From NCBI GenBank assembly GCA_947628675.1, contig CANRAR010000013.1, forward strand, positions 1 through 36,621: DNA of 36,621 nt. Direction: 5' to 3'. The number at the start of each line of letters is the position of its first letter. Position 1 is the stretch's first letter. Below are positions 24,291-36,621 of this stretch, in pieces. A program made the position numbers and the translations under genes. The notes beneath the pieces are model-generated. The model had not been told where the DNA came from, made no database searches, and saw nothing but the letters and a program-made list of their open reading frames with translations. Source of the stretch: an uncultured Clostridia bacterium (GTDB lineage: Bacteria > Bacillota > Clostridia > Christensenellales > Borkfalkiaceae).

Positions 24291-27200
24291 TCAATCGGCT
24301 ACATTCATATCGCTTACTTTCACAGTAAATGTGATATCGTCCAACCCGTCAATGTGATAGGTGAAGGTAATAACAGCGTAGCCGTGTTGACGTTTACAAT
24401 CGGCACCAAAAGCACTATCACGTTCCCACGTTTGATCCCACTTATATTCGATAATCCCGTTCGCTTGCGAAATAGTGGGATCATTGGTAATCGACAATTT
24501 ATCCTTCTCATTGTCTTTCGCTACATAATGCTCTACCGAAATCGTCCGATTCAAAGACAGTTCCGCCACCATAGTGCCGATGAAGAGGAGGCCATCGCCC
24601 TCGATTTGCAATGTCGATTCATATCTCCACCGGTTTTCGCCCCACCATTTTGAATCGACTGTTCTTACGGTTTTAAGTGTTGTGGAGAGACCCTCGTTCG
24701 TTTCCGTTACCCACAGCGCTTCGACTCTGGTCGTGGTCTCCGCTGCGGCGAGGTCGAGCGTGTCGCTTACCTTACTCCACTTGCCGTTCGCATCCTTCGT
24801 GTACCAACCGAGGAAGGTGTAGCCATCGGCAACGGGCGTCCAAGGCGTGTATGAGCCCTGATAGTTTTCGGGATATTCGGTTTTCGCATTGTAAATGCTA
24901 AAATCTCCGTCGCCCTTTTCGATCTTGAAGGGAATCTCGCTGTAATACACGATCGTATCTTCGCCGTACTCCGCGGTGAACGTGAAGCCGTAAGGATCGT
25001 AATAGTACGAGGTCGATTTCCATTCGCCCTTGCGGTTGCCAATGCTGTAAATATCGCCACCCGTAGGAAGATCGAAGAGATTGTCGCCCGCCTCTACAAT
25101 ATCCGTGCGGATCAAGCCGTTGTAATCCCTGTAGTAGACCTTCGATTCAAGGTAGAGTTGCGTCTTGAAGACGTATTTGCCCGTGGGCTCGCCGTCCTCA
25201 TATTCCTCCACCCACCTGTCGTCGAGTTTGACATCGGAGCGGAAGGTGACATTTTGCAGTTCGGTCACATAGACGGGGCTAATATCGAGTTCGCTTGACG
25301 TAACCTCCTTGTGCGGCCAAATGTACACTTTGCCCTCTTCGTCCGTCTGCGGGCAATCGATGCCGTTGCTCGCAGCGAGTTCATCGGCATAGACGTGAGA
25401 ACTCGAAGTGATCGTGCCATCGAAGGTAAGTTTGCCATCGAAGAAACTGCTGTTGAAGCTGCCCGTATAGTTGAGGTGGATATCGGGCACGGAGCCGACG
25501 ACGGTGCCTTCCTGATTCTTGAAGTTCACGGTGTAGGTACCAATGGTGATGACCGCAACATCGTGCACGACGACCTTGGCTTTCTCATCGCGATCGGTGA
25601 AGGTGAGTTCCACCGCCGCGCCGCCGTGAGCCGCACCGCTCGAAAGGAAGCCGTATTTTGCCGTCGTCATGCCGGTATCGCTAAACTCGGAGGTGTTACT
25701 TCCATCGTTCCGCGGGGTGAGCGTGAAGTCTTTGCCCGACTTCAACGTTTCATCGCCCTTCTTGCCGCCGAGGATATAGATCCCCTTTATATTCTGTTTA
25801 ACGCCCGCAGCGGTATAAATCTTTTCGCTGAATGCCCCGTGAGGAAGCCCGCCCTTCGCGGTGCCGGAGATGGAATAAGTGGCCGCAAAGTCGTTACCTT
25901 CGCGCGAGACGGACGCAATGTTGAGCTTGATCTCTTCGATCCACACGGCGTAAAGCTCGACATCGTAGTCCTTCTCCTCGTCTTCGTAGGCGTTCTTCCC
26001 CTTTGTCACGCGGAATTCCAAAACGTCGGTCACGAGCCTCCATCCGCCCTCCACGGCGGAATCTTCCACGAACCACGCGAGGTGCTGATAGCCGCCGTCC
26101 GCCGTGGGCTTGAAGGTGATCTGCGTATCGTCGTCCAAGTAGATTTCGTCGTAATAGAAGCCCTTGCCCGAAGCGTAGAGGTCGAGATCGCTCGTCTGAA
26201 TGTCGCTGTAGAAGCGCACGGTGATGGCGTTGCTCTTCCAATAGGCATAGATGGAGAACTTCACTTCGGCGCCACCCGTCCAACCAAAGACGCCTGTGAT
26301 GGTGTCGTTATTGATGGTCTCAATGGATTTGCCCTCGCCGAGGGGCTCGGAGAAGAAGCCCTTGTATTCGAAGCCCTTTTTGTGAGCGCCCTGCACGTCC
26401 ACGGCATCGCCGCCGCCTTCGAGTGTCACTTTATTGCTGTCGTAGACGTAGAAGAGCTTCCGCACGTAGTACTCGGTACCCGTGACACTTTCGGACTTTT
26501 CGACCTTCGTAAAGCCGTCCAACGGATAGAGCGAATACTGGTCGATCTCGAAGGTGATGGGCGTGTATTTCGCCCTGATGACGATCTTGCCGTCCTCTCC
26601 GTCGCCCGACTCGGGCACGGTGTAATCGGGCGCGATATTCCATTCGCCCGTATAGCCAAACCGTTCGGGCACTTCGTCGGGTATATCCTCATCGGTGAGA
26701 GTAGAGCCAACCTGTTTGTTTCTCCCCTCGAACTGCTTAAAGATGTTACCATTTTCATCGCCGAAATACACGTAGACGCCGCGTTTTTCCCAGACCGCCG
26801 TAAAGGTGGTGGGCTCCAAAACGTTGGGAAGATTATCCTTATAGGTCTTGTCGCTCTTCCAACCGCTGAGGATAAACCCGCCGTTCTCCGCCTTGGCGTT
26901 GATGGGGAGTTTGAACGGCTTATCGTATGTGAACATATACGTTGCAACGTACTTGCCGCTGTGTTCCCCTTCATTGCACATGGTGAAGGTAAGGCCATCC
27001 CATTCGATGAAGTGCTCACTCACGAAGGTGATCTCAAACTGCTTGGGCTCGTACTGCGCGGTGTACTTCGCATTATCTACTTCGGGCGAGAACGTCTTGG
27101 GAACATTGCTATCCCATTCCGCAAAGGAATAGCCCTCTTTCGCGGTTTCGTACCCTTCGGGGAGTTTGATCTCCGCGCCGAAGATGCCCTTGCGCTCCGT

Positions 27201-30200
27201 GATTTCGCCGTTGACATCGAAGGTGACGGTGAATTCCACGTCCTTCCAAACGGCGATAAGTTCGACCGTCGTTGCATCGTCGATGGGTTTCCACTTGGTA
27301 AGGTCGGTGATGACCTGCCCCGCGTACTGATAGCCGACGAGTTCCTTGACATAGTCGTCCCCGCGAACCTGCGTACCGATGCGGAGATCGTAGGAAGCCC
27401 CGTAGGTGTATTCGTCGGTCTTGACGAACTTGCCCTCGGAATTTTCAAAGCGGTCGCCTTCGACATCGTAGTCGCTCTTGAAGAGGAAAGTGTACGTGTT
27501 GGGAACTTCCGACGCGTTGATTTCCATAATGGGCTTGAGTTTGAGGTTCTTCGGCCATTCCCAATGATACCCTGCGCCTGCCGCCTCTGCGCCATCGAAC
27601 GAAGGATATTTGAGTTCGCTGTAAAATTCTTTCGTCTGCGTATCGTAGACGATATGTTGCTCGTTTACGAGTTTGCCCTTGACAAAGTATTTGATGCTGC
27701 CGAGTTGCCCTTCGATGCAGTTCGTCGTCTCCCAATCGGCGTTCTCGAGCTTGATATCCATTGCGTCTTCGAGCGTCGCGGCAACATCCGTCGTGGTATC
27801 CTTGGAGTCCGCATCCATCTTGCCGCCGGGGTTGTGCCACGTGAGGTCTGCGTGAATGGTGACGGCGCCCGCAATGTCGAGGTCTGCCGCGATTCCGCGG
27901 AGGTATCCCACCGCATCCGTCGTGACCGCGACCTGCATCTTCTTGAAGGTATCGCTCCCCGTGAGACCCTGACCGTTGATGTTGAGCGTCCACGTATCGC
28001 CCACTTCCGCCTTATTGTAGGTGCAGGACTTGACAAACTTATCGAGATATGCGCCGAGATCGGTGGGCGTATTGTCCGCCGCGCCGCCCGAACTGCCGCT
28101 CGTGCCGACCATCTCCATGACGTTGGTTATGACCTTCTCGCTGAGGTTGAACATGAAGCAGATGTGGTTCATGTAGTCCTTCATAAAGTTGGAGAGCGGC
28201 AACGCGCGGTAAATCACGTAAGGTTCGGGCAACGTGAGTTCTTTGCTACCGTCGAACTCCGTCGTCTGCGTACGCTTCATGTAGAGCATGAGGCCTTCGC
28301 CGCTGCGCGGGCTCTCTTTGATGGTGACATCGAGCGCCGTATCGCCCTTGATGATGTCACTGTCGCCGAGAACGCCGCCCAAGAGGTTGTGATAGCCGTC
28401 GTATTCGAGGCGGAGATTGATGCCCACCCTGCCGTCTTCATCGAGATTGACGGAGATCGCAATGACCTTGATCGTGATCTTCGCGGCACCGCTCAACAGG
28501 TCGAGCGTCGCCGAGCCGTCGATATAGAAGTTATTGTTGAGCACGTAGTGGTGCGGCGTCTCCTCGCCCGTGTACACCGTGCCGTCCTCGTTGACGCCGT
28601 GCGTCGCGGACTTTGCAAGCGCGAGAATGAGCGTATCCACCGCCTCGACGTTGAAGTAGCCCTCGATCGCGGGCGCCTGCGCCGTCACTTCCGCCGTGCC
28701 GATGTTGAGGGCGATGTCCGTCTTTTCCGTGCCCTTCTTTCCATATATATTATTGATAGAAAGCGACGTGAGCAGCGTGGAGCCGTCTTCGCCCATCGCC
28801 TTTTGCAGGGTGACGGTGAGGTCGTCGCACCCTTCGCCGAACAGCGCGGCGCCGTCGAGCGAGAAGGTGAACTTGCCCGCCTGTTCCTTGGTCGCCTTGG
28901 AGAGTTCGAGCGCGGTGATGTAGCCGCCCTTCTTGGCGGGCGCCGATTCTTCGGGCTGCCCCACGGACGTATCCTGCCCTTCGGGGGTCTGCCCGTCGGG
29001 CGCATCTTGCCCTTCGGAGATCTCGAGTTCGGCCGCCGCGGGTTCGTCCTTCTTGCCGAAGAGCCCCGTAAGCCCGCCGAGCCCATTTTCTTTGAGCCCG
29101 TTGAGCGTCCCGATGACGCCCTCGATCTGCTCGAGGATGGGCCCGACGCCCGAGATGTCCGCGAGCATGGATTTGAGACTGTCGCCGAGGCCTTTTAACT
29201 CGCCCACGTTCTCGGCGGTCAGCCACTTGCCGATCATGTAGTCGTTGAGAATATCCACATCCACGCCGAACATCGCGCACACGCCCGAAAGGATCGTCAT
29301 CACTTCGTCGGCGGGGGCGTACAGTTTGAGCGGGTCATAGTAGTCCGCGTTGGCCGTGTCGGCCTTGCCGATCGTGGAAGCGGTAATGTAGAAGTCGAGA
29401 ATATCGTCCTGCTTGACCTCTTTGTCGGCATCCACGACGGTGATGTCGAGTTCCATATTGCTGTCGTCGGGGTGCGGCGAGGTCATGGCGAACGAGACGT
29501 GCAGGTAGACGTCGGGATCGACGACGAGGTGCTTGCCGTCCACGTCGAGGTAGAGCGGGAAGTTCTCGCCCGCCTTGTATTCTATGGTCGCCTCGATATT
29601 CGACTTGACGTACCCGTAGTCCGCGTACTTCTCATCCGTCGAGGTGACGGTGCCCGTGAGCGTGAGGGTGAGGTTTTTCTGCGAGATGAGCCCGACCGCC
29701 GCGCCGAGATAGTCGATGAGGTCGGCGATCTCCTCGGTGCCGAGGTATTCGATTGCGGGCATTTCGGGAATTTCGCCCGTGTACACGGCGGCGTGGAGCG
29801 CGCCGTTGACGGTGACGGATTGGGCGGTAAAGCCGAGTTTGAGCCCGATGAGCCCCTTCGCCGCGAGTTCGGAGAGGATCTCCACCGTGAGCCCCTTGTA
29901 TTCGAGGTGCGCGATGCCGCCCTCCTCCGCGGAGGCGCCGATGACGATGCTCCCCACGAGTTCCGTCCAATCGAAGTCCTTGCCCTCTTCCACCGTCTCC
30001 TCGGTGGCCTCGGCGAGCACTGCGCTGCCCTGGAGCAGATCCATGAGATCTTCGAAGCCCGTAAGTTCTGGAAGCGGGTTCTTTGCATCCGCACCGAGCG
30101 CATCCTGCACAATGCCGCGTACACGGCCGTACACGTCGAGTAGCGCCGTCTCGAGCTGGGAGAGATCCTTATAATACAACTGCACCCCGATGCCGCTGTA

Positions 30201-33200
30201 ATACAGCTGCACTTCGGCATCCGTGATGCGCAGAAGGATGTTCTGCTGCACGTCGCCCACGCCGAGGATGAGGTCGAGGTAGACGTCGATGCCGTCCTTC
30301 CACGAGATGTACCCCTTCTGCACGGCGAGGGAGATCTCCGTCTGCGTGACGCCGGGCTCCGCCTTGCCGAGGCGGACGACCACCTCGCCCTCGAGGGAGA
30401 GCGTCTCCGCGTTGAGAATGGCGGGAAGTTCCTTGAGGACGGGCGTGAGGTCGGTAAATTCATCGGGGTCGGGAAGTGTGCCGAGTTCGTCGCCCTTAGC
30501 GAGCGTGAGCGAGAGGCCAAGGTCTTCCGCCGTCGCCTCGATGGTGTCGCCCAAGGTGAGAACGACGGTGCCGAGCCCGAACTTCACGCCGAACGCTTCG
30601 AGAAGCGCGGTGCCATTGAGGGTGAGCGAGAGAGTATCGTCCGCATCGGAGAGTGAGAGCACGTCGCCGAAGCGGAAGGAGAATACGGCGTCGAGGATCT
30701 TCTCCACGGTATCGTCCTCCGCGGCGTCGGGATCCTCCTCCGCAATGAGGCTCTTCACAATATCGATGGCGTCGCTCGCGTAGACTTTGAGTTTGAGGCC
30801 GTCGATTGTGAGGCACAATTCCTTCCCCTCGCCGCCCAAATAGGCAATTTGTATCGTCTTGACAAGTTTCTGATATGTGAGGGTGATCTCGCCCACTGCG
30901 GCGAGGTGGTTGATGTCGAGTTTCACCGTCCCGCTGACTTGCAGGCCGTTCTTATTATAATCGACGTTCGCGCCGATAAATCCGCTCTCCGTGATGGCGG
31001 TGACGGCGTTCACGAAGCCCATGAGGTCGGTATAGCCGTCCTTTTCCACCGTGACGCCCGTGCCCTTCGTCACCTTGAGGCTCGCGCCGAGTTTCTCGGA
31101 GGCGACGGAGATGCTCTCGCCCGCAACGCCGAGCGTGAGGTCGCTCAGATCGAAACTGCCGAGGTCGAACCCGAACGCCTTGATGAGCGCGGTGACGTTG
31201 ACGGCGGCTGTGAGCGCGTCCGCATTGCCCGAGACCTTGATGTTGTCGGTGAGGAGCGTCGTGAAGAGCAGGGTATCGACGAGTTTGGGAATGGAGAAGC
31301 CCTCATCCGCGGCGGTGTCCTGATCCGTCGCGCCGTCCGCGTTGTCCTTATCCTCGTCCTTTGCGAGGAACTTCTTCACGAGGTCGGCTGCCTCGTTGAC
31401 GCTCGCCGAGATCTTCACGCCGTCGAGGTCGATGTAGGCGACGCCGTTTTCGTAGGCGATGCGCACCGTCTTGCTCGCCTCTCCCCTCTTGATGGTGAGG
31501 AGGGCGCTCGCCTTGATGCGCTCCTGTTTCTGTTCGTCGGTGAGTTCCCCGTCGGCGGAGGTGGGATAGGTAATATCCACGCCGCCCGTCACGGTGAGCC
31601 CGTAGCCCTCGTAGGCGAGTTCCACGTGCAGATCGCCGCTCTGGACGAGCGCGAGGATGTTCTTTACGTGCCCCGCGAGTTCCACATAGCCGTCCTTATC
31701 GGAGATGGGCGCGGGCGCCTTGTCCGCCTGCGTATAGCCGAGCGTCGCCTCGACGGAAATATCCGCCACGGTGAACGCGGTATGTACATTGTTGAGGGAA
31801 GCGGTGAGTTTCTCCTCGTCGATGAAGTAATTGAAGTCGATGGGAAGAAGCAGCCCGCCGAGGTCGAGTTCCGCGTGTGCGTTGGCGACGCCCGAGCCGT
31901 CCTCGTGGACGAGTTCGGCGTCCATGATGGCGCTGAGCGGGTTGGAAGCCTCCTCTTCGGGCGTCTCCGCAGGCACGGTTTCCGCGGGAGGTTCCGCAGT
32001 CTCCGTGTCGCCGCCGATGAGTCCGCCGAGCAGATCCATGAGTTCGGAGATAGTGAGTTTGAGTTTGAGGTCGTCCCCCACGCTGATGTACGCCGCCGCG
32101 GGGGTGACAACGGTCACTTCGCCCGTCGCCGCATCCGTCTGTTTGACGGCGGGATCCACCTGCAACCGCACGTTGCCGAACTTCGCGCGCACCTCGAGAT
32201 TGTCGATGAAGTTGGTAATATCCTCCTCCGTCGCAAAACTCGGGACGCCGCCGCCCGTGTGCAAATCGACGTAGATGATGCCCTCCACGGGTTTGCCGCC
32301 CACGGCGAGATCCACCCGCAGGGTGCACGGACCGCTGATGACGGGCGCAAACGCCGAGGCGAGCGCGCTCATGCCGTCGATGGTGGGATCGGGCGCGCCC
32401 GTCGCCTCCATCTGCGCGTACTGCTGGAAGTACTCCTCGTACGCGTTGGAGATGGGCAAATAGGGCGTATCGTAGGAGAATTCCGTCACGCCCTCCGCCT
32501 CACAGCCGACGGTAAAGCCCATCGTCGCCGTGTATTTTTCGTGCGCCTCCGTCTTGAGGTTTTCCCAATTCTCGTTGAAGGTGAAGGAAATTTCGATGTC
32601 CTCGAAGGTGGGCACGTCGGTGAGGCCGCCCGTGAACTTCATCTGGTTGGAGTAGTAGGCGGGCGCGCCCTCGGTGGAGCCGTCCTCCGCCTGCCACACC
32701 GCGGGATTCATATGATAGGTAATGGTATAGGTGCCGTCGCCGTTATCCACCGCGGGGTCGGAACTCAAAATGGTCTCCTCGCGGAAGACGTACACCGAAA
32801 GTTCGGTCGCGGGCAGGCCGTTCTTGGCCTTGAAGCCATCGGGGCCGCTGATCGTCATGTTGCCCCGGGGGGCACCCTGCTCCCAAGGGGTATCGAAGCC
32901 GTTGTAGGTGGAGGGGCCGCCCGCCGCCTCGCGCCAGATGACGCGGTCTTGGGAGGGAATATAGCAGAACTGCCTCGCCGCATTGACGAGGCTGGAAGTC
33001 GTGATGTCGGCGGAGATGAGCCGCCCGTCCTTGAACTGTTTGTACGTCTTGACGTCTTGGTTGACCGTCGTATAGACGTAGCCCTGATAGGAGGAGTACC
33101 ACTCCGTCTTCTGCTGGAACGTCCAGTTCAATCGCCCGAACACGTCGAGCCCCGAATAGCCCTTATCGGGGGAGAAGGTCTCGCCCTCCTGCACGACGTA

Positions 33201-33671
33201 GGAGACGGAGCCGTAGCCCTCGTTGACCACAAAGCCTTCGCCGGGTCTGAACATGAGCCCGATGCCGAGCCCCGAGGCCATCAGCGCGAGCGCCACCGCG
33301 ATGGCGGTGAAGAGTTTGAGTTTCCTGTGGGTGCCCACCTTGAGGGGACGGCGCCCCATGCGCTTGTCCATGGCGTCGGCATGGCGCTTGGCAGCGGCAG
33401 TCGCGGCCGCTCTGCGCGCAGCCGCCTCGGAATGCGATACTTTCTGCATGGAACCCGCCGCGCCCGTATGCGCCGCGGTCGTATATACCCTTCCCACGTT
33501 CTCGGGAACTTTCCTCGCTTCGGCGGAGGCGCGCATCGCCTCCTTCATCTCCCTGCGGGCAATGCGCTCCTTCGCCTTCTGTTCGGCGAGCGCAGCCGCC
33601 TTGCGGCGGGAGGCAGAGACCTTGGCTCCCTGCCGCGTTCCCATGGCGTTTTTCCCGGATTTATTACTCAT
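24291..33671 (-). CDS. Giant N-terminally anchored surface protein with tandem beta/helix modules and InlB-type repeats, 3126 aa
   Basis: ATG 33671 lies 7 bases after AGGAGGT; a GTG 9 bases earlier is less well placed. Residues 1 to about 117 are very basic and Ala-rich (SASRRKAAALAEQKAKERIA) and should stay in the cytoplasm. One TM helix follows (LFTAIAVALALMASGLGIGL, about 120-142), then about 2980 external residues. From about 660 to 1300 three or more tandem ~200-residue modules alternate amphipathic strands with short helices (motifs KTVRIAYENGVAYIDLDG and KTIQIAYLGGEGKELCLTID align). A Pro/Gly/Glu linker sits near 1545-1580. InlB-like units (TVTFDVNGE, YSFAEWDS, YTFLGWYTKD) occupy about 2130-2960. 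There is no sorting signal or C-terminal TM. Function unknown: adhesin, matrix or lipid-handling scaffold are options. Confidence 0.85.
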   Translation of the reverse strand: MSNKSGKNAMGTRQGAKVSASRRKAAALAEQKAKERIARREMKEAMRASAEARKVPENVGRVYTTAAHTGAAGSMQKVSHSEAAARRAAATAAAKRHADAMDKRMGRRPLKVGTHRKLKLFTAIAVALALMASGLGIGLMFRPGEGFVVNEGYGSVSYVVQEGETFSPDKGYSGLDVFGRLNWTFQQKTEWYSSYQGYVYTTVNQDVKTYKQFKDGRLISADITTSSLVNAARQFCYIPSQDRVIWREAAGGPSTYNGFDTPWEQGAPRGNMTISGPDGFKAKNGLPATELSVYVFREETILSSDPAVDNGDGTYTITYHMNPAVWQAEDGSTEGAPAYYSNQMKFTGGLTDVPTFEDIEISFTFNENWENLKTEAHEKYTATMGFTVGCEAEGVTEFSYDTPYLPISNAYEEYFQQYAQMEATGAPDPTIDGMSALASAFAPVISGPCTLRVDLAVGGKPVEGIIYVDLHTGGGVPSFATEEDITNFIDNLEVRAKFGNVRLQVDPAVKQTDAATGEVTVVTPAAAYISVGDDLKLKLTISELMDLLGGLIGGDTETAEPPAETVPAETPEEEASNPLSAIMDAELVHEDGSGVANAHAELDLGGLLLPIDFNYFIDEEKLTASLNNVHTAFTVADISVEATLGYTQADKAPAPISDKDGYVELAGHVKNILALVQSGDLHVELAYEGYGLTVTGGVDITYPTSADGELTDEQKQERIKASALLTIKRGEASKTVRIAYENGVAYIDLDGVKISASVNEAADLVKKFLAKDEDKDNADGATDQDTAADEGFSIPKLVDTLLFTTLLTDNIKVSGNADALTAAVNVTALIKAFGFDLGSFDLSDLTLGVAGESISVASEKLGASLKVTKGTGVTVEKDGYTDLMGFVNAVTAITESGFIGANVDYNKNGLQVSGTVKLDINHLAAVGEITLTYQKLVKTIQIAYLGGEGKELCLTIDGLKLKVYASDAIDIVKSLIAEEDPDAAEDDTVEKILDAVFSFRFGDVLSLSDADDTLSLTLNGTALLEAFGVKFGLGTVVLTLGDTIEATAEDLGLSLTLAKGDELGTLPDPDEFTDLTPVLKELPAILNAETLSLEGEVVVRLGKAEPGVTQTEISLAVQKGYISWKDGIDVYLDLILGVGDVQQNILLRITDAEVQLYYSGIGVQLYYKDLSQLETALLDVYGRVRGIVQDALGADAKNPLPELTGFEDLMDLLQGSAVLAEATEETVEEGKDFDWTELVGSIVIGASAEEGGIAHLEYKGLTVEILSELAAKGLIGLKLGFTAQSVTVNGALHAAVYTGEIPEMPAIEYLGTEEIADLIDYLGAAVGLISQKNLTLTLTGTVTSTDEKYADYGYVKSNIEATIEYKAGENFPLYLDVDGKHLVVDPDVYLHVSFAMTSPHPDDSNMELDITVVDADKEVKQDDILDFYITASTIGKADTANADYYDPLKLYAPADEVMTILSGVCAMFGVDVDILNDYMIGKWLTAENVGELKGLGDSLKSMLADISGVGPILEQIEGVIGTLNGLKENGLGGLTGLFGKKDEPAAAELEISEGQDAPDGQTPEGQDTSVGQPEESAPAKKGGYITALELSKATKEQAGKFTFSLDGAALFGEGCDDLTVTLQKAMGEDGSTLLTSLSINNIYGKKGTEKTDIALNIGTAEVTAQAPAIEGYFNVEAVDTLILALAKSATHGVNEDGTVYTGEETPHHYVLNNNFYIDGSATLDLLSGAAKITIKVIAISVNLDEDGRVGINLRLEYDGYHNLLGGVLGDSDIIKGDTALDVTIKESPRSGEGLMLYMKRTQTTEFDGSKELTLPEPYVIYRALPLSNFMKDYMNHICFMFNLSEKVITNVMEMVGTSGSSGGAADNTPTDLGAYLDKFVKSCTYNKAEVGDTWTLNINGQGLTGSDTFKKMQVAVTTDAVGYLRGIAADLDIAGAVTIHADLTWHNPGGKMDADSKDTTTDVAATLEDAMDIKLENADWETTNCIEGQLGSIKYFVKGKLVNEQHIVYDTQTKEFYSELKYPSFDGAEAAGAGYHWEWPKNLKLKPIMEINASEVPNTYTFLFKSDYDVEGDRFENSEGKFVKTDEYTYGASYDLRIGTQVRGDDYVKELVGYQYAGQVITDLTKWKPIDDATTVELIAVWKDVEFTVTFDVNGEITERKGIFGAEIKLPEGYETAKEGYSFAEWDSNVPKTFSPEVDNAKYTAQYEPKQFEITFVSEHFIEWDGLTFTMCNEGEHSGKYVATYMFTYDKPFKLPINAKAENGGFILSGWKSDKTYKDNLPNVLEPTTFTAVWEKRGVYVYFGDENGNIFKQFEGRNKQVGSTLTDEDIPDEVPERFGYTGEWNIAPDYTVPESGDGEDGKIVIRAKYTPITFEIDQYSLYPLDGFTKVEKSESVTGTEYYVRKLFYVYDSNKVTLEGGGDAVDVQGAHKKGFEYKGFFSEPLGEGKSIETINNDTITGVFGWTGGAEVKFSIYAYWKSNAITVRFYSDIQTSDLDLYASGKGFYYDEIYLDDDTQITFKPTADGGYQHLAWFVEDSAVEGGWRLVTDVLEFRVTKGKNAYEDEEKDYDVELYAVWIEEIKLNIASVSREGNDFAATYSISGTAKGGLPHGAFSEKIYTAAGVKQNIKGIYILGGKKGDETLKSGKDFTLTPRNDGSNTSEFSDTGMTTAKYGFLSSGAAHGGAAVELTFTDRDEKAKVVVHDVAVITIGTYTVNFKNQEGTVVGSVPDIHLNYTGSFNSSFFDGKLTFDGTITSSSHVYADELAASNGIDCPQTDEEGKVYIWPHKEVTSSELDISPVYVTELQNVTFRSDVKLDDRWVEEYEDGEPTGKYVFKTQLYLESKVYYRDYNGLIRTDIVEAGDNLFDLPTGGDIYSIGNRKGEWKSTSYYYDPYGFTFTAEYGEDTIVYYSEIPFKIEKGDGDFSIYNAKTEYPENYQGSYTPWTPVADGYTFLGWYTKDANGKWSKVSDTLDLAAAETTTRVEALWVTETNEGLSTTLKTVRTVDSKWWGENRWRYESTLQIEGDGLLFIGTMVAELSLNRTISVEHYVAKDNEKDKLSITNDPTISQANGIIEYKWDQTWERDSAFGADCKRQHGYAVITFTYHIDGLDDITFTVKVSDMNVAD

Positions 33672-33744
33672 GACCAACACCTCCTGCGCCCCGTCGGCGA
33701 AAATATGACGGCGGCGCCGCGATGTAATTTTTTTCTATGACACG

Positions 33745-33878: not shown

Positions 33879-34544
33879 CTAATCGTGCAAAAGAGCGCCC
33901 AAAAGTTCGCGCTCCAAGGGGAGCGGCGCCAAAAAATCGCGCGGATAGGGCGCGGGGTTCTCCACATCGGCGACGATCTTCCCCGCGCGGAGCACGAGCG
34001 CGCGCTCGGAGAGCACGGCGGCCTCGTGGATGTCGTGCGTCACAAAGAGCACGGTCGTGCCCGTCTCCCGCCACAGGGAGAGGGTGAGCGCGATGAGCGA
34101 ACGCTTCAACGAGACGTCGAGCGAGGAGAAGGGCTCGTCCATGAGGAGGGTATCGTGCGGGAAGAGGAAGGCGCGGGCGATGGCGACGCGCTGTTTTTCT
34201 CCCCCCGAAAGTTCGGAGGGGCGCGCCTTCTCCCTGCCCCCGAGCCCCACTTTTTCGAGCATGGAGGAGATCTCCCCCCACTTCTCCTTGGGCAGGACGA
34301 ACTTCAGATTCCCCTCCGCCGTGAGGTTGGGCAGGAGTTTGGGCTCTTGGAAGAGGTAGGAGACGCGCCCCGCCCCCTCCACCTTCCCCTCGAAGGGGAT
34401 GCGCCCCGCAATGGCGGAGAGCAGCGTCGTCTTTCCCGCCCCGCTCTCCCCGAGCACGGCAGTCATCCTCCCCTCCCCGAGCGTCAGTTCGGCGTCGAGG
34501 CAAAACGTCTCGCCGTATTGCTTATGAATTTTCGCGCAGATCAT
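33879..34544 (-). CDS. ABC importer ATP-binding protein (SsuB/TauB-like), 221 aa
   Basis: ATG 34544 follows GAGGAGG and overlaps the permease stop (ATGA). Full set of motifs: Walker A GESGAGKT (32-39), Q-loop FQEPKL (Gln66), signature LSGGEKQR (112-119), Walker B LLMDEP (133-138) with SSLD, and switch His170 in FVTHD. It energises the permease encoded next to it; two copies would form the motor. It is short compared with typical ~250-residue relatives, with a trimmed C-terminus. Last gene of a three-gene operon that ends in a strong terminator at 33831. Confidence 0.93.
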   Translation of the reverse strand: MICAKIHKQYGETFCLDAELTLGEGRMTAVLGESGAGKTTLLSAIAGRIPFEGKVEGAGRVSYLFQEPKLLPNLTAEGNLKFVLPKEKWGEISSMLEKVGLGGREKARPSELSGGEKQRVAIARAFLFPHDTLLMDEPFSSLDVSLKRSLIALTLSLWRETGTTVLFVTHDIHEAAVLSERALVLRAGKIVADVENPAPYPRDFLAPLPLERELLGALLHD

Positions 34545-35299
34545 TTGAGCCTCCTCTCCGCAAAGCGGTACAGAAGATACCCCGCCCCCTCGAGGACGAA
34601 CCCGATGACGACGACGATGAGGGTGAGCGCGAAGAGGCTCGCAAGTTGCAGTTCGAGTTGCGCCGTCTGCATCAGCCCGCCGATGCTGCGGTACGTCCGC
34701 GCGAGGATCTCCCCCGAGACGGTGATCTTCAGCCCGAGGGAGAGGATGGGGCCGCACTGCGCCAAGACGGGCGGCGCGGCGAGCGGGACGTACATCTTGA
34801 AGAGTTGATTTTTGGCGCTCACGCCGAACGCCGCCGCAACTTCCCCGTAGCCCGCGCGCACCTCGTCCACACTTGCGAGCATCGCCGCATAGAGGGTGGG
34901 AAGCAGCACGAGCAGGGCGACGATGATGGGCGCCGTCGAATAGAGCGCAGGATAGCGCACCGCCCACGCGAGCAGGATGAGCGTCACCGCAATCGTGGGC
35001 ACACTGCGGAGCACGGAGACGAAGGGCGCAATGAGGGCGCGCGCCTTCTCCGAGAGCGAGGCGAGCGCGGCGAGCCCCGCCCCCAAGAGAAAGGCGAGGG
35101 CGAAGGCGGCGAGGTCGCGCAGCAACGTAAAGGCGAACCCCCGCCAGAAGGCGGCGCTCCCGAACTCCCTCCCCGCGGCGACAAAGGTATCCCAGAGGGA
35201 GGGAACGATGCCGTCGTTTCTCACAATGAAATAGACGGCGACCCACGCAAGCGCCAAAATGGCGAGCGAGAGCGCCGAAAAGAGCAGATTTTTCTTCAC
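34541..35299 (-). CDS. ABC importer permease (SsuC/TauC-like), 252 aa
   Basis: GTG start at 35299, one base after the receptor stop, so translation is probably coupled. About six TM helices are readable: SALSLAILALAWVAVYFIV at the N-terminus, LAAFALAFLLGAGLAAL, VPTIAVTLILLAWA, IIVALLVLLPTLYAAML, a short one near AAPPVLAQCGPILSLGL, and LASLFALTLIVVVIGFV. The cytoplasmic EAA loop (EVAAAFGVSAKNQLFKMYVP) that contacts the ATPase is intact. The family includes taurine, sulfonate, nitrate and thiamine-precursor importers; the true substrate cannot be read. Confidence 0.92.
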   Translation of the reverse strand: MKKNLLFSALSLAILALAWVAVYFIVRNDGIVPSLWDTFVAAGREFGSAAFWRGFAFTLLRDLAAFALAFLLGAGLAALASLSEKARALIAPFVSVLRSVPTIAVTLILLAWAVRYPALYSTAPIIVALLVLLPTLYAAMLASVDEVRAGYGEVAAAFGVSAKNQLFKMYVPLAAPPVLAQCGPILSLGLKITVSGEILARTYRSIGGLMQTAQLELQLASLFALTLIVVVIGFVLEGAGYLLYRFAERRLK

Positions 35300-35300
35300 G

Positions 35301-36335
35301 TTACTTGTTTTGCGCCTTAAAATTGTTCACTTTGAGGGTCGCGGCGGGCTCGGGGCAGAGGTAGTAATCGCACCCGCCCGCAGGGCCGACGGTCGTCGCA
35401 TCCGCGTAGGAGACGAGGTTGACCTTATCCGCGGCGACCTGTCCCTCCGAATTGAGCACGGAGAAGGGTATGCCCGCCTTCGTCAGCACGGCCTTGAAAG
35501 TGAGCCCGGGGACGTTTTCGAGTTGGACGACCCCCACCTTCTTGCCGACGAGCGCCGTAAGGTTTTCCGCCGTGAGATCGGGGAGCAAGGTGTTCGCGCG
35601 AAGGAAGTACATATTGCCGTGGGTGACGACGCCGAGCATCGTGTACTTTTCCGCCGTCCCGAGTTTCTGCGCCGCCGCATTGGAGGGCAGGATGCAGAAA
35701 TCGGCATTCTTCGCCGCCTCCTCCCCCGTGACGGTCGTCACGATGCCGTTCGCGTTCACAATGTGATAGGCGAAGTGCGCGTTCCCGTCCGCAATGGCGC
35801 CCGCAAGCGCGAGCGCAGGCGCACCGTCGGGCGCATACACCGTGTACTGCCCGCTTATCGTCCCCTCCTGCGCGCCGCCCGCGTAGAAGAAAGCGTCTGC
35901 GGGCGCGGGGAAATTGACCTCTGCAAGATAACTCTTCACGCTCGCCTTGGCGGCGGCAGCCGCCTCGAACTTCACCGAGCAGTTCTCAATGACCTGCGCA
36001 TTGAGATTTTTCGCGTTGAACGAGGGGGTGAAGTCGGTCGCGGGATAGGCCACGGAGAGATCGGAGACCACCTTTGTCGGCTCGGAGGCGGCGAGATAGT
36101 CATGCGCGCCCTCCATGTAGGTGAGCATCTTCGCAACGGCGGCGGGGTCGTCCCCGAGGACGTCGTTCTTGACGACGAGCACCGCCTGCGGATAGCCGCC
36201 CTCGCCGTAGAGCGCCTGCAAACTGCCGGCGAACTCGAAGGTCGTCTCGCCCTCCACCGCCTCGCCGCACGCCGCGCCGAACATCGCCACGCCGCACACC
36301 GCGGCGCACAAAATGCCTGCAAAAAATTTTTTCAT
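35301..36335 (-). CDS. ABC importer substrate-binding lipoprotein, apparently circularly permuted, 344 aa
   Basis: ATG 36335 follows AGGAGG. Lipoprotein signal with lipobox GAAC, lipid on Cys23. The fold elements are those of the SsuA/NMT1-like receptors common in Clostridia, but in swapped order. Residues 35-151 (FAGSLQALYGEGGYPQAVLV ... TPSFNAKNLNAQVIENC ... ADAFFY) match what is normally the C-terminal part, ending in FFY. A linker (AGGAQEGTISG, 152-162) follows. Residues 163-337 (YTVYAPDGAPALALA ... ICILP-type FCILPSN ... VGVVQLENVPGLTFKAVL ... CPEPAATLKV) match what is normally the N-terminal part. Nothing is missing, so the protein can be functional. It heads the operon with permease and ATPase; ligand unknown. 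Confidence 0.85.
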   Translation of the reverse strand: MKKFFAGILCAAVCGVAMFGAACGEAVEGETTFEFAGSLQALYGEGGYPQAVLVVKNDVLGDDPAAVAKMLTYMEGAHDYLAASEPTKVVSDLSVAYPATDFTPSFNAKNLNAQVIENCSVKFEAAAAAKASVKSYLAEVNFPAPADAFFYAGGAQEGTISGQYTVYAPDGAPALALAGAIADGNAHFAYHIVNANGIVTTVTGEEAAKNADFCILPSNAAAQKLGTAEKYTMLGVVTHGNMYFLRANTLLPDLTAENLTALVGKKVGVVQLENVPGLTFKAVLTKAGIPFSVLNSEGQVAADKVNLVSYADATTVGPAGGCDYYLCPEPAATLKVNNFKAQNK

Positions 36336-36414: not shown

Positions 36415-36621
36415 GATTGATTTGTGCTTGTTGATCGATTTGCGTTTGTTGATCGATTTGCGCTTGTTGATTGATTTACGCTTGTTGATTGATTTGCGTT
36501 TGTTGATCGATTTGTGTTTGTCGATCGATTTGCGCTTGTTGATTGATTTGCGCTTGTTGATTGATTTGCGCTTGTTGATTGATTTGCGCTTGTTGATTGA
36601 TTTGCGCTTGTTGATTGATTT
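36415..36621. repeat. 18-bp tandem array upstream of the ABC operon, continuing past the window
   Basis: The unit is GATTGATTTGCGCTTGTT, repeated about 11.5 times without spacers. Units near the gene carry substitutions (GATCG, GTGTTTG, ACGCTTG); the last four or five before the window edge are identical. 18 is a multiple of 3, but the array is not preceded by a start with a ribosome site on either strand inside the window. Confidence 0.92.

Follow-up and report, generated by a model that had tools for sequence, protein, structure and literature searches.

Circular permutation of proteins is usually met as an ancient one-off. Two routes to it, duplication and fission-fusion, are set out in a review, which also treats the DNA methyltransferases as a family with permuted members explained by duplication (Jeltsch 1999 and Bujnicki 2002, as cited in PMC3320104). 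A natural circular permutation in a lipid-anchored ABC substrate-binding protein (SBP) is already described in TpMglB-2 (Tp0684) of Treponema pallidum, a 'Type Ic / cluster Bc' ligand-binding protein; its permuted relatives also occur in Gram-positive gut bacteria and its authors suggest a link between permutation and membrane tethering (PMC4990184). Because TpMglB-2 is known, SBP permutation as such is not new. The same report treats TpMglB-2 as a sugar-binding protein of Type I (cluster B); a single topology is given for it, and its permuted part shares 13% identity with MglB (PMC4990184), whereas the family described here is SsuA/NMT1-like, is opened at three loops and appears to have been so in many events. 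The SsuA, nitrate and ThiY-type SBPs (2x26, 3hn0, 3ix1) are among its closest known systems. In the portion of the open-access literature that we could consult, we found no report of recurrent permutation within one SBP family, and on that footing recurrent, multi-phase permutation looks new.

A permuted receptor gene in an ABC transporter operon

On the minus strand of the window, a stretch of 36,621 nucleotides from a gut bacterium, the open reading frame 35301-36335 (ATG start) encodes an ABC substrate-binding lipoprotein with a chain order that we call T1. The features of this gene and of its operon are:

35301..36335, minus strand: circularly permuted (T1) ABC substrate-binding lipoprotein, 344 aa (swapped-block matches, phase detector, predicted fold)
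36267..36335, minus strand: lipoprotein signal peptide and lipobox, kept N-terminal (sequence)
35883..36245, minus strand: block A (residues 31-151), the C-terminal part in unpermuted relatives (block comparison)
35847..35882, minus strand: seam linker AGGAQEGTISGQ (residues 152-163), Gly/Ala-rich, joining the old C- and N-termini (sequence, block comparison)
35328..35846, minus strand: block B (residues 164-336), the N-terminal part in unpermuted relatives (block and structure comparison)
34541..35299, minus strand: ABC permease (BPD_transp_1), directly downstream of the receptor (PF00528, E 2.4e-15)
33879..34544, minus strand: ABC ATPase, its start (codon placed by eye) overlapping the permease stop (PF00005, E 2e-26)

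We take the lipobox to end at Cys23. The mature chain opens with the FAGSLQALYGEGGYPQ block and reaches ADAFFY at residue 151, as the original prediction had it; the Gly/Ala-rich linker that follows was also correctly seen, although we count 12 residues in it and not 11. Then come YTVYAPDGAPALALA and CPEPAATLKV, and block B ends near the new C-terminus, with a short tail after residue 336. The permease and ATPase provide the operon context of SsuA/NMT1-like SBPs, and a profile search of the genome itself, at E up to 10, returned a single match.

Upstream of the receptor gene lies an 18-bp tandem array (36415-36621, 11.5 copies, 92% matches, unit GATTGATTTGCGCTTGTT) that is cut by the contig end, and the array may be the reason why the contig stops at this point. 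Downstream of the operon, the minus-strand frame 24291-33680 encodes a protein of 3129 aa that matches the Listeria-Bacteroides repeat domain (PF09479, E 1.4e-06); at two other loci (L182 and L198) large proteins with similar N-terminal parts, as compared by eye, also follow the operon.

When blocks A and B (here taken as residues 31-158 and 160-344) were compared separately with 29 relatives, 19 of these showed the order B-A, four (L002-L005) the order A-B of the window, and six were cut elsewhere, in an order that we call T2. The swap was also found on DNA: in the unpermuted genome G111, window residues 149-338 match first (E 8.9e-62) and residues 31-155 follow (E 2.5e-31). The window protein found a match in 129 of 151 family genomes, the unpermuted ones in two swapped pieces on DNA and four (G009, G117, G055 and G132) in one piece across nearly the whole protein. 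Identity to unpermuted congeners of genus g1 is 37-52% for block A and 53-61% for block B. The circular permutation of the window protein is real and far beyond chance, and the claim of two blocks, each present once and swapped against ordinary relatives, stands.

Ancestral order and predicted fold

We fetched the loci of 104 family genomes out of the 129 with a match (the remaining 25 being mostly weaker or unlisted matches). All 104 hold both blocks, 86 of them unpermuted (C), five in T1 order, the window included, and 13 in T2 order. Beyond the order, 291 class genomes gave 12 with a match, eight of them from outside the order, and the loci of all eight are unpermuted, so that the order A-B is not the usual one. 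Among the matches listed, which were the strong ones only, no permuted relative came from outside the order, neither in these class genomes (E 1e-20) nor in a search of 398 phylum genomes with a threshold of E 1e-18 (nine matching, the window's own included), and this negative is accordingly a weak one. The Pfam NMT1 profile runs colinearly along the unpermuted L085 (profile 36-216 on residues 73-262), and on the T2 protein L031 it matches as two stretches, with the second half of NMT1_2 at the N-terminus. The unpermuted order is also that of SsuA-type structures. Because NMT1, these structures and the eight outside loci all show the unpermuted order, we take T1, T2 and a third permuted order, T3 (see below), as derived.

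Structure prediction, which had been proposed as a check, gave a confident fold for the whole permuted chain (AlphaFold pLDDT 88, with residues 1-26 below 50). In structure comparison with the two-lobed fold of SsuA-type SBPs, the C-terminal half of this model corresponds to the N-terminal half of SsuA, and the model of an unpermuted congener matches SsuA and 3hn0 over its full length; the agreement in fold between the two orders is thus one of predicted models and partial structure matches. The matches listed for both models are SsuA, Thi5 and similar SBPs, which we take to be type II.

At the sequence level the window protein reaches the curated cut-off of no Pfam or NCBIfam family. Among close kin, NMT1 attains E 0.01 in one of 33 unpermuted congeners and in one of 18 T1 proteins, and the more distant L085 and L031 pass PF09084. 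Since the window protein and most congeners miss Pfam, the name SsuA/NMT1-like rests on the fold and on these distant relatives. We had considered that permutation hides the gene from Pfam and dropped the idea, as the unpermuted congeners are mostly missed too. Searching solved structures by sequence gave only chance-level rows with the window protein (best E 0.29), and 3hn0 only, at E 1e-4, with the unpermuted alignment. As for clues to the substrate from RNA elements, no Rfam element reached the gathering score in the window and 16 loci.

Three breaks in the receptor chain

An order-wide search found a match in 293 of 395 genomes and, among the matches listed, further T1- and T2-like cases as well as the third break, T3, so that the number of permuted cases is at least that seen. 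We added 40 further loci from the order, 10 of them chosen as permuted-looking, and assigned each chain a phase with a detector built from a doubled profile (304 positions, twice). The 144 rows fell into 116 C, 18 T2, eight T1 and two T3. Chain ends are discrete, at 172-177 (T1), 125-132 (T2) and 82-83 (T3) of the 304 positions; fitted starts are more scattered (165-181, 114-140 and 91, respectively), partly because signal peptides get aligned. A T2 chain opens with the last part of block B (in several proteins, VNL..PEPAA), passes through A and finishes with the start of B; it begins within block B and is therefore cut at a different loop from T1. Matched by eye onto the model of the unpermuted L198, the T1 break, which the original prediction placed in the hinge between the two lobes, falls between helix 196-203 and strand 212-216, the T2 break between strands 157-160 and 171-176, and the T3 break between strand 109-113 and helix 122-128.

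Named genomes yielded 76 loci, many from chicken bins and from bins labelled 'Lapin' (taken as rabbit), five under the name Candidatus Gallimonas and the others as uncultured Clostridia or the like. Seventeen are T1, 57 are unpermuted and two, cut by contig ends, start in unpermuted order. Candidatus Gallimonas merdae (L193) is T1 and the other four named Gallimonas are unpermuted; one further protein (L181) is 89% identical to that of the window. In the T1 gene of genus g3 (L005/L108, from G132), undetermined residues stand shortly before the readable seam. Genus g10 holds a far-diverged T2 pair (L036 and L037) with a permease lineage of its own, perhaps a separate paralogous transporter.

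The unpermuted form is present at the same locus in congeners. Across 197 loci, with some genomes entered twice, the nearest permease is downstream on the same strand in 190, upstream in two, and none is in reach in five. DNA comparison of a T2 gene (L031) with an unpermuted gene of the same genus (L082) shows a common 5' flank, a common permease start and, between them, both coding blocks in swapped order at 78% each. Permuted DNA methyltransferases, those of Jeltsch and Bujnicki, reportedly form far-diverged classes, whereas events in the present family fall within genera, such T2 and unpermuted sisters being 75-78% identical in DNA. Finally, six pairs of permuted genes gave dN/dS values of 0.07-0.22 (first 35 columns excluded), and the permuted genes are under purifying selection.

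Independent changes of chain order

To count changes, trees were built from sequences rotated to a common order. The family tree (104 rows) holds nine topology changes, all nine forced, that is, on branches with SH-aLRT of at least 95. The order tree (144 rows), in which the long rows L145 and L172 are uncertainly placed, holds 15, with 11 forced when C is set against the rest. A bootstrapped tree of 60 hand-picked rows (25 of 28 permuted and 35 unpermuted) also gave 15 changes; scored as C versus all other types, it needs 14, of which 13 are forced (14-16 across bootstrap trees); by type, T2 changes 10 times, T1 three times and T3 twice (one forced). Counted changes can be gains or reversals. 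With this reservation, permutation in this SsuA/NMT1-like family appears to be recurrent, and the sequence trees put the number of order changes at about nine to fifteen. The tree of the adjacent permease (141 of 144 rows) holds 19 changes, at least 10 of them forced.

Could this pattern instead reflect a small set of ancient permuted alleles or paralogues, distributed by horizontal transfer or sorted by loss? The recurrence of T1 and of T2, each at a nearly identical break, would fit, and so would five of 26 permuted rows (L036, L037, L145, L146 and L147) that have no unpermuted neighbour of the same genus in the permease tree. For the other 21, the nearest unpermuted permease listed is from the same genus. 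AU tests on 103 family rows (without L104) rejected both a single T1 clade (lnL 129 lower, p 3.5e-15) and a single T2 clade (lnL 540 lower, p 6e-18); the test groups were set by block order, yet the tests were picked after the first tree had been seen. Because the permease tree resembles the receptor tree, spread of permuted alleles is unlikely as the main cause, and we consider the ancient-allele explanation very improbable. An assembly or binning artefact, which could be suspected since nearly all named sources are metagenome-assembled genomes, is scarcely credible: the T1 order is common to 17 of 76 loci from different bins, reading frames are intact and under purifying selection, and permuted genes lie on long contigs (G122, 656 kb; G225, 543 kb; G381, 973 kb).

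With this many changes, several of them having unpermuted sisters in the same genus, it becomes testable whether the route is duplication or fission, how the break loop is chosen, what moving the lipid anchor does and whether topology is reversible. The family would be a rare natural series in which to study the re-ordering of protein chains, and permutation in it may be close to neutral. For receptor engineering it would supply natural controls, in the form of one receptor that has been opened at three loops with purifying selection kept.

A probable route by duplication, fusion and trimming

Our preferred reading, which we hold with good confidence, is that the window gene encodes a working SBP, permuted to T1 by duplication, fusion and trimming, and that the change recurred at three loops in the family. 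On this reading the product is a lipid-anchored SBP that has an SsuA/NMT1-like fold and would serve an ABC importer, in a species probably of the Candidatus Gallimonas group. Tandem duplication of the receptor gene would come first. The two copies would then have fused in frame, the second losing its signal peptide, and a redundant part would have been trimmed away from either end. In the present chain a short linker connects the ancestral termini, the new termini lie in a loop that follows the PEPAA helix, and signal peptide and lipobox have remained N-terminal. Changes of this kind appear to have occurred many times, at the T1, T2 and T3 loops, in place and in the same operon.

Relics of a duplication were sought outside the permuted gene at 27 permuted loci (the window's excluded), and none was clear (best E 0.001, over the signal peptide). 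A fused dimer or second copy, as two such ORFs of at least 60 aa, was found in none of 221 sources, nor did any of 256 loci show two longer ORFs. Two apparent overlaps were discarded: that of L252 (35 positions) comes from a signal peptide wrongly aligned with the last part of block B, and that of G436 proved spurious once the protein was read.

This lack of intermediates speaks against the duplication route. In a T2 pair of genus g6, a loop of unpermuted kin is gone at the new ends, and at the seam the old C-terminus runs into a spacer that, in our reading, resembles the lipoprotein spacer of unpermuted kin. Genus f3.g78 (10 genomes) has four T2 forms, four of near-original order in which block A is missing its final element, and two unpermuted ones that are more distant. 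In one near-original form, L164, the mature chain opens after a short spacer with DSVFYDASAASEKGGGSGTLDL, a sequence that its congeners carry as their T2 seam: out of 22 residues, 16 are identical to L143, no shuffle out of 2000 reached the score for any of the four T2 seams, and the DNA is 85% identical to L143 over 55 nt, with two shorter pieces of 79-80% to L150. At its C-terminus L164 lacks the final element of block A. This T2 seam relic is the strongest evidence that we have for tandem duplication, fusion and trimming.

Fission-fusion, in which the gene splits into two half-genes that later fuse in the opposite order, is a recognised second route (PMC3320104), and it gains from the fact that the duplicated intermediate is likewise absent from the 27 permuted loci and 221 sources. 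The family is split over two ORFs in none of these 221, however, and in our reading a fusion of two whole copies agrees better with the relic in L164 and with seam spacers that resemble those of lipoproteins; we regard this route as unlikely. We give equally little chance to a one-step excision and re-insertion, in which the gene would form a circle and be opened anew at a different loop, between the signal peptide and the stop. Such a step would account at once for single-copy blocks, kept flanks and absent intermediates, but it needs extra steps for the L164 relic, and we know of no machinery for it.

The simplest reading of genus f3.g78 is that its near-original and T2 forms were both cut from a seam-bearing ancestor, either a fused dimer or a T2 chain, and the sequences hint at a reversal of topology there. 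We find it somewhat more probable than its opposite that topology in this family is labile, the chain hopping among at least four phases (unpermuted, T1, T2 and T3) through duplication, fusion and trimming that recur at its native locus, visibly within genera, and including, in the f3.g78 clade with its L164 relic, the re-opening of a permuted or fused ancestor to near-original order. The relic, borne by a single protein, could also stem from a later local rearrangement. L178, a close relative of L164, has only the linker after its lipobox and lacks the roughly 20 residues of the seam relic; the junction is still changing.
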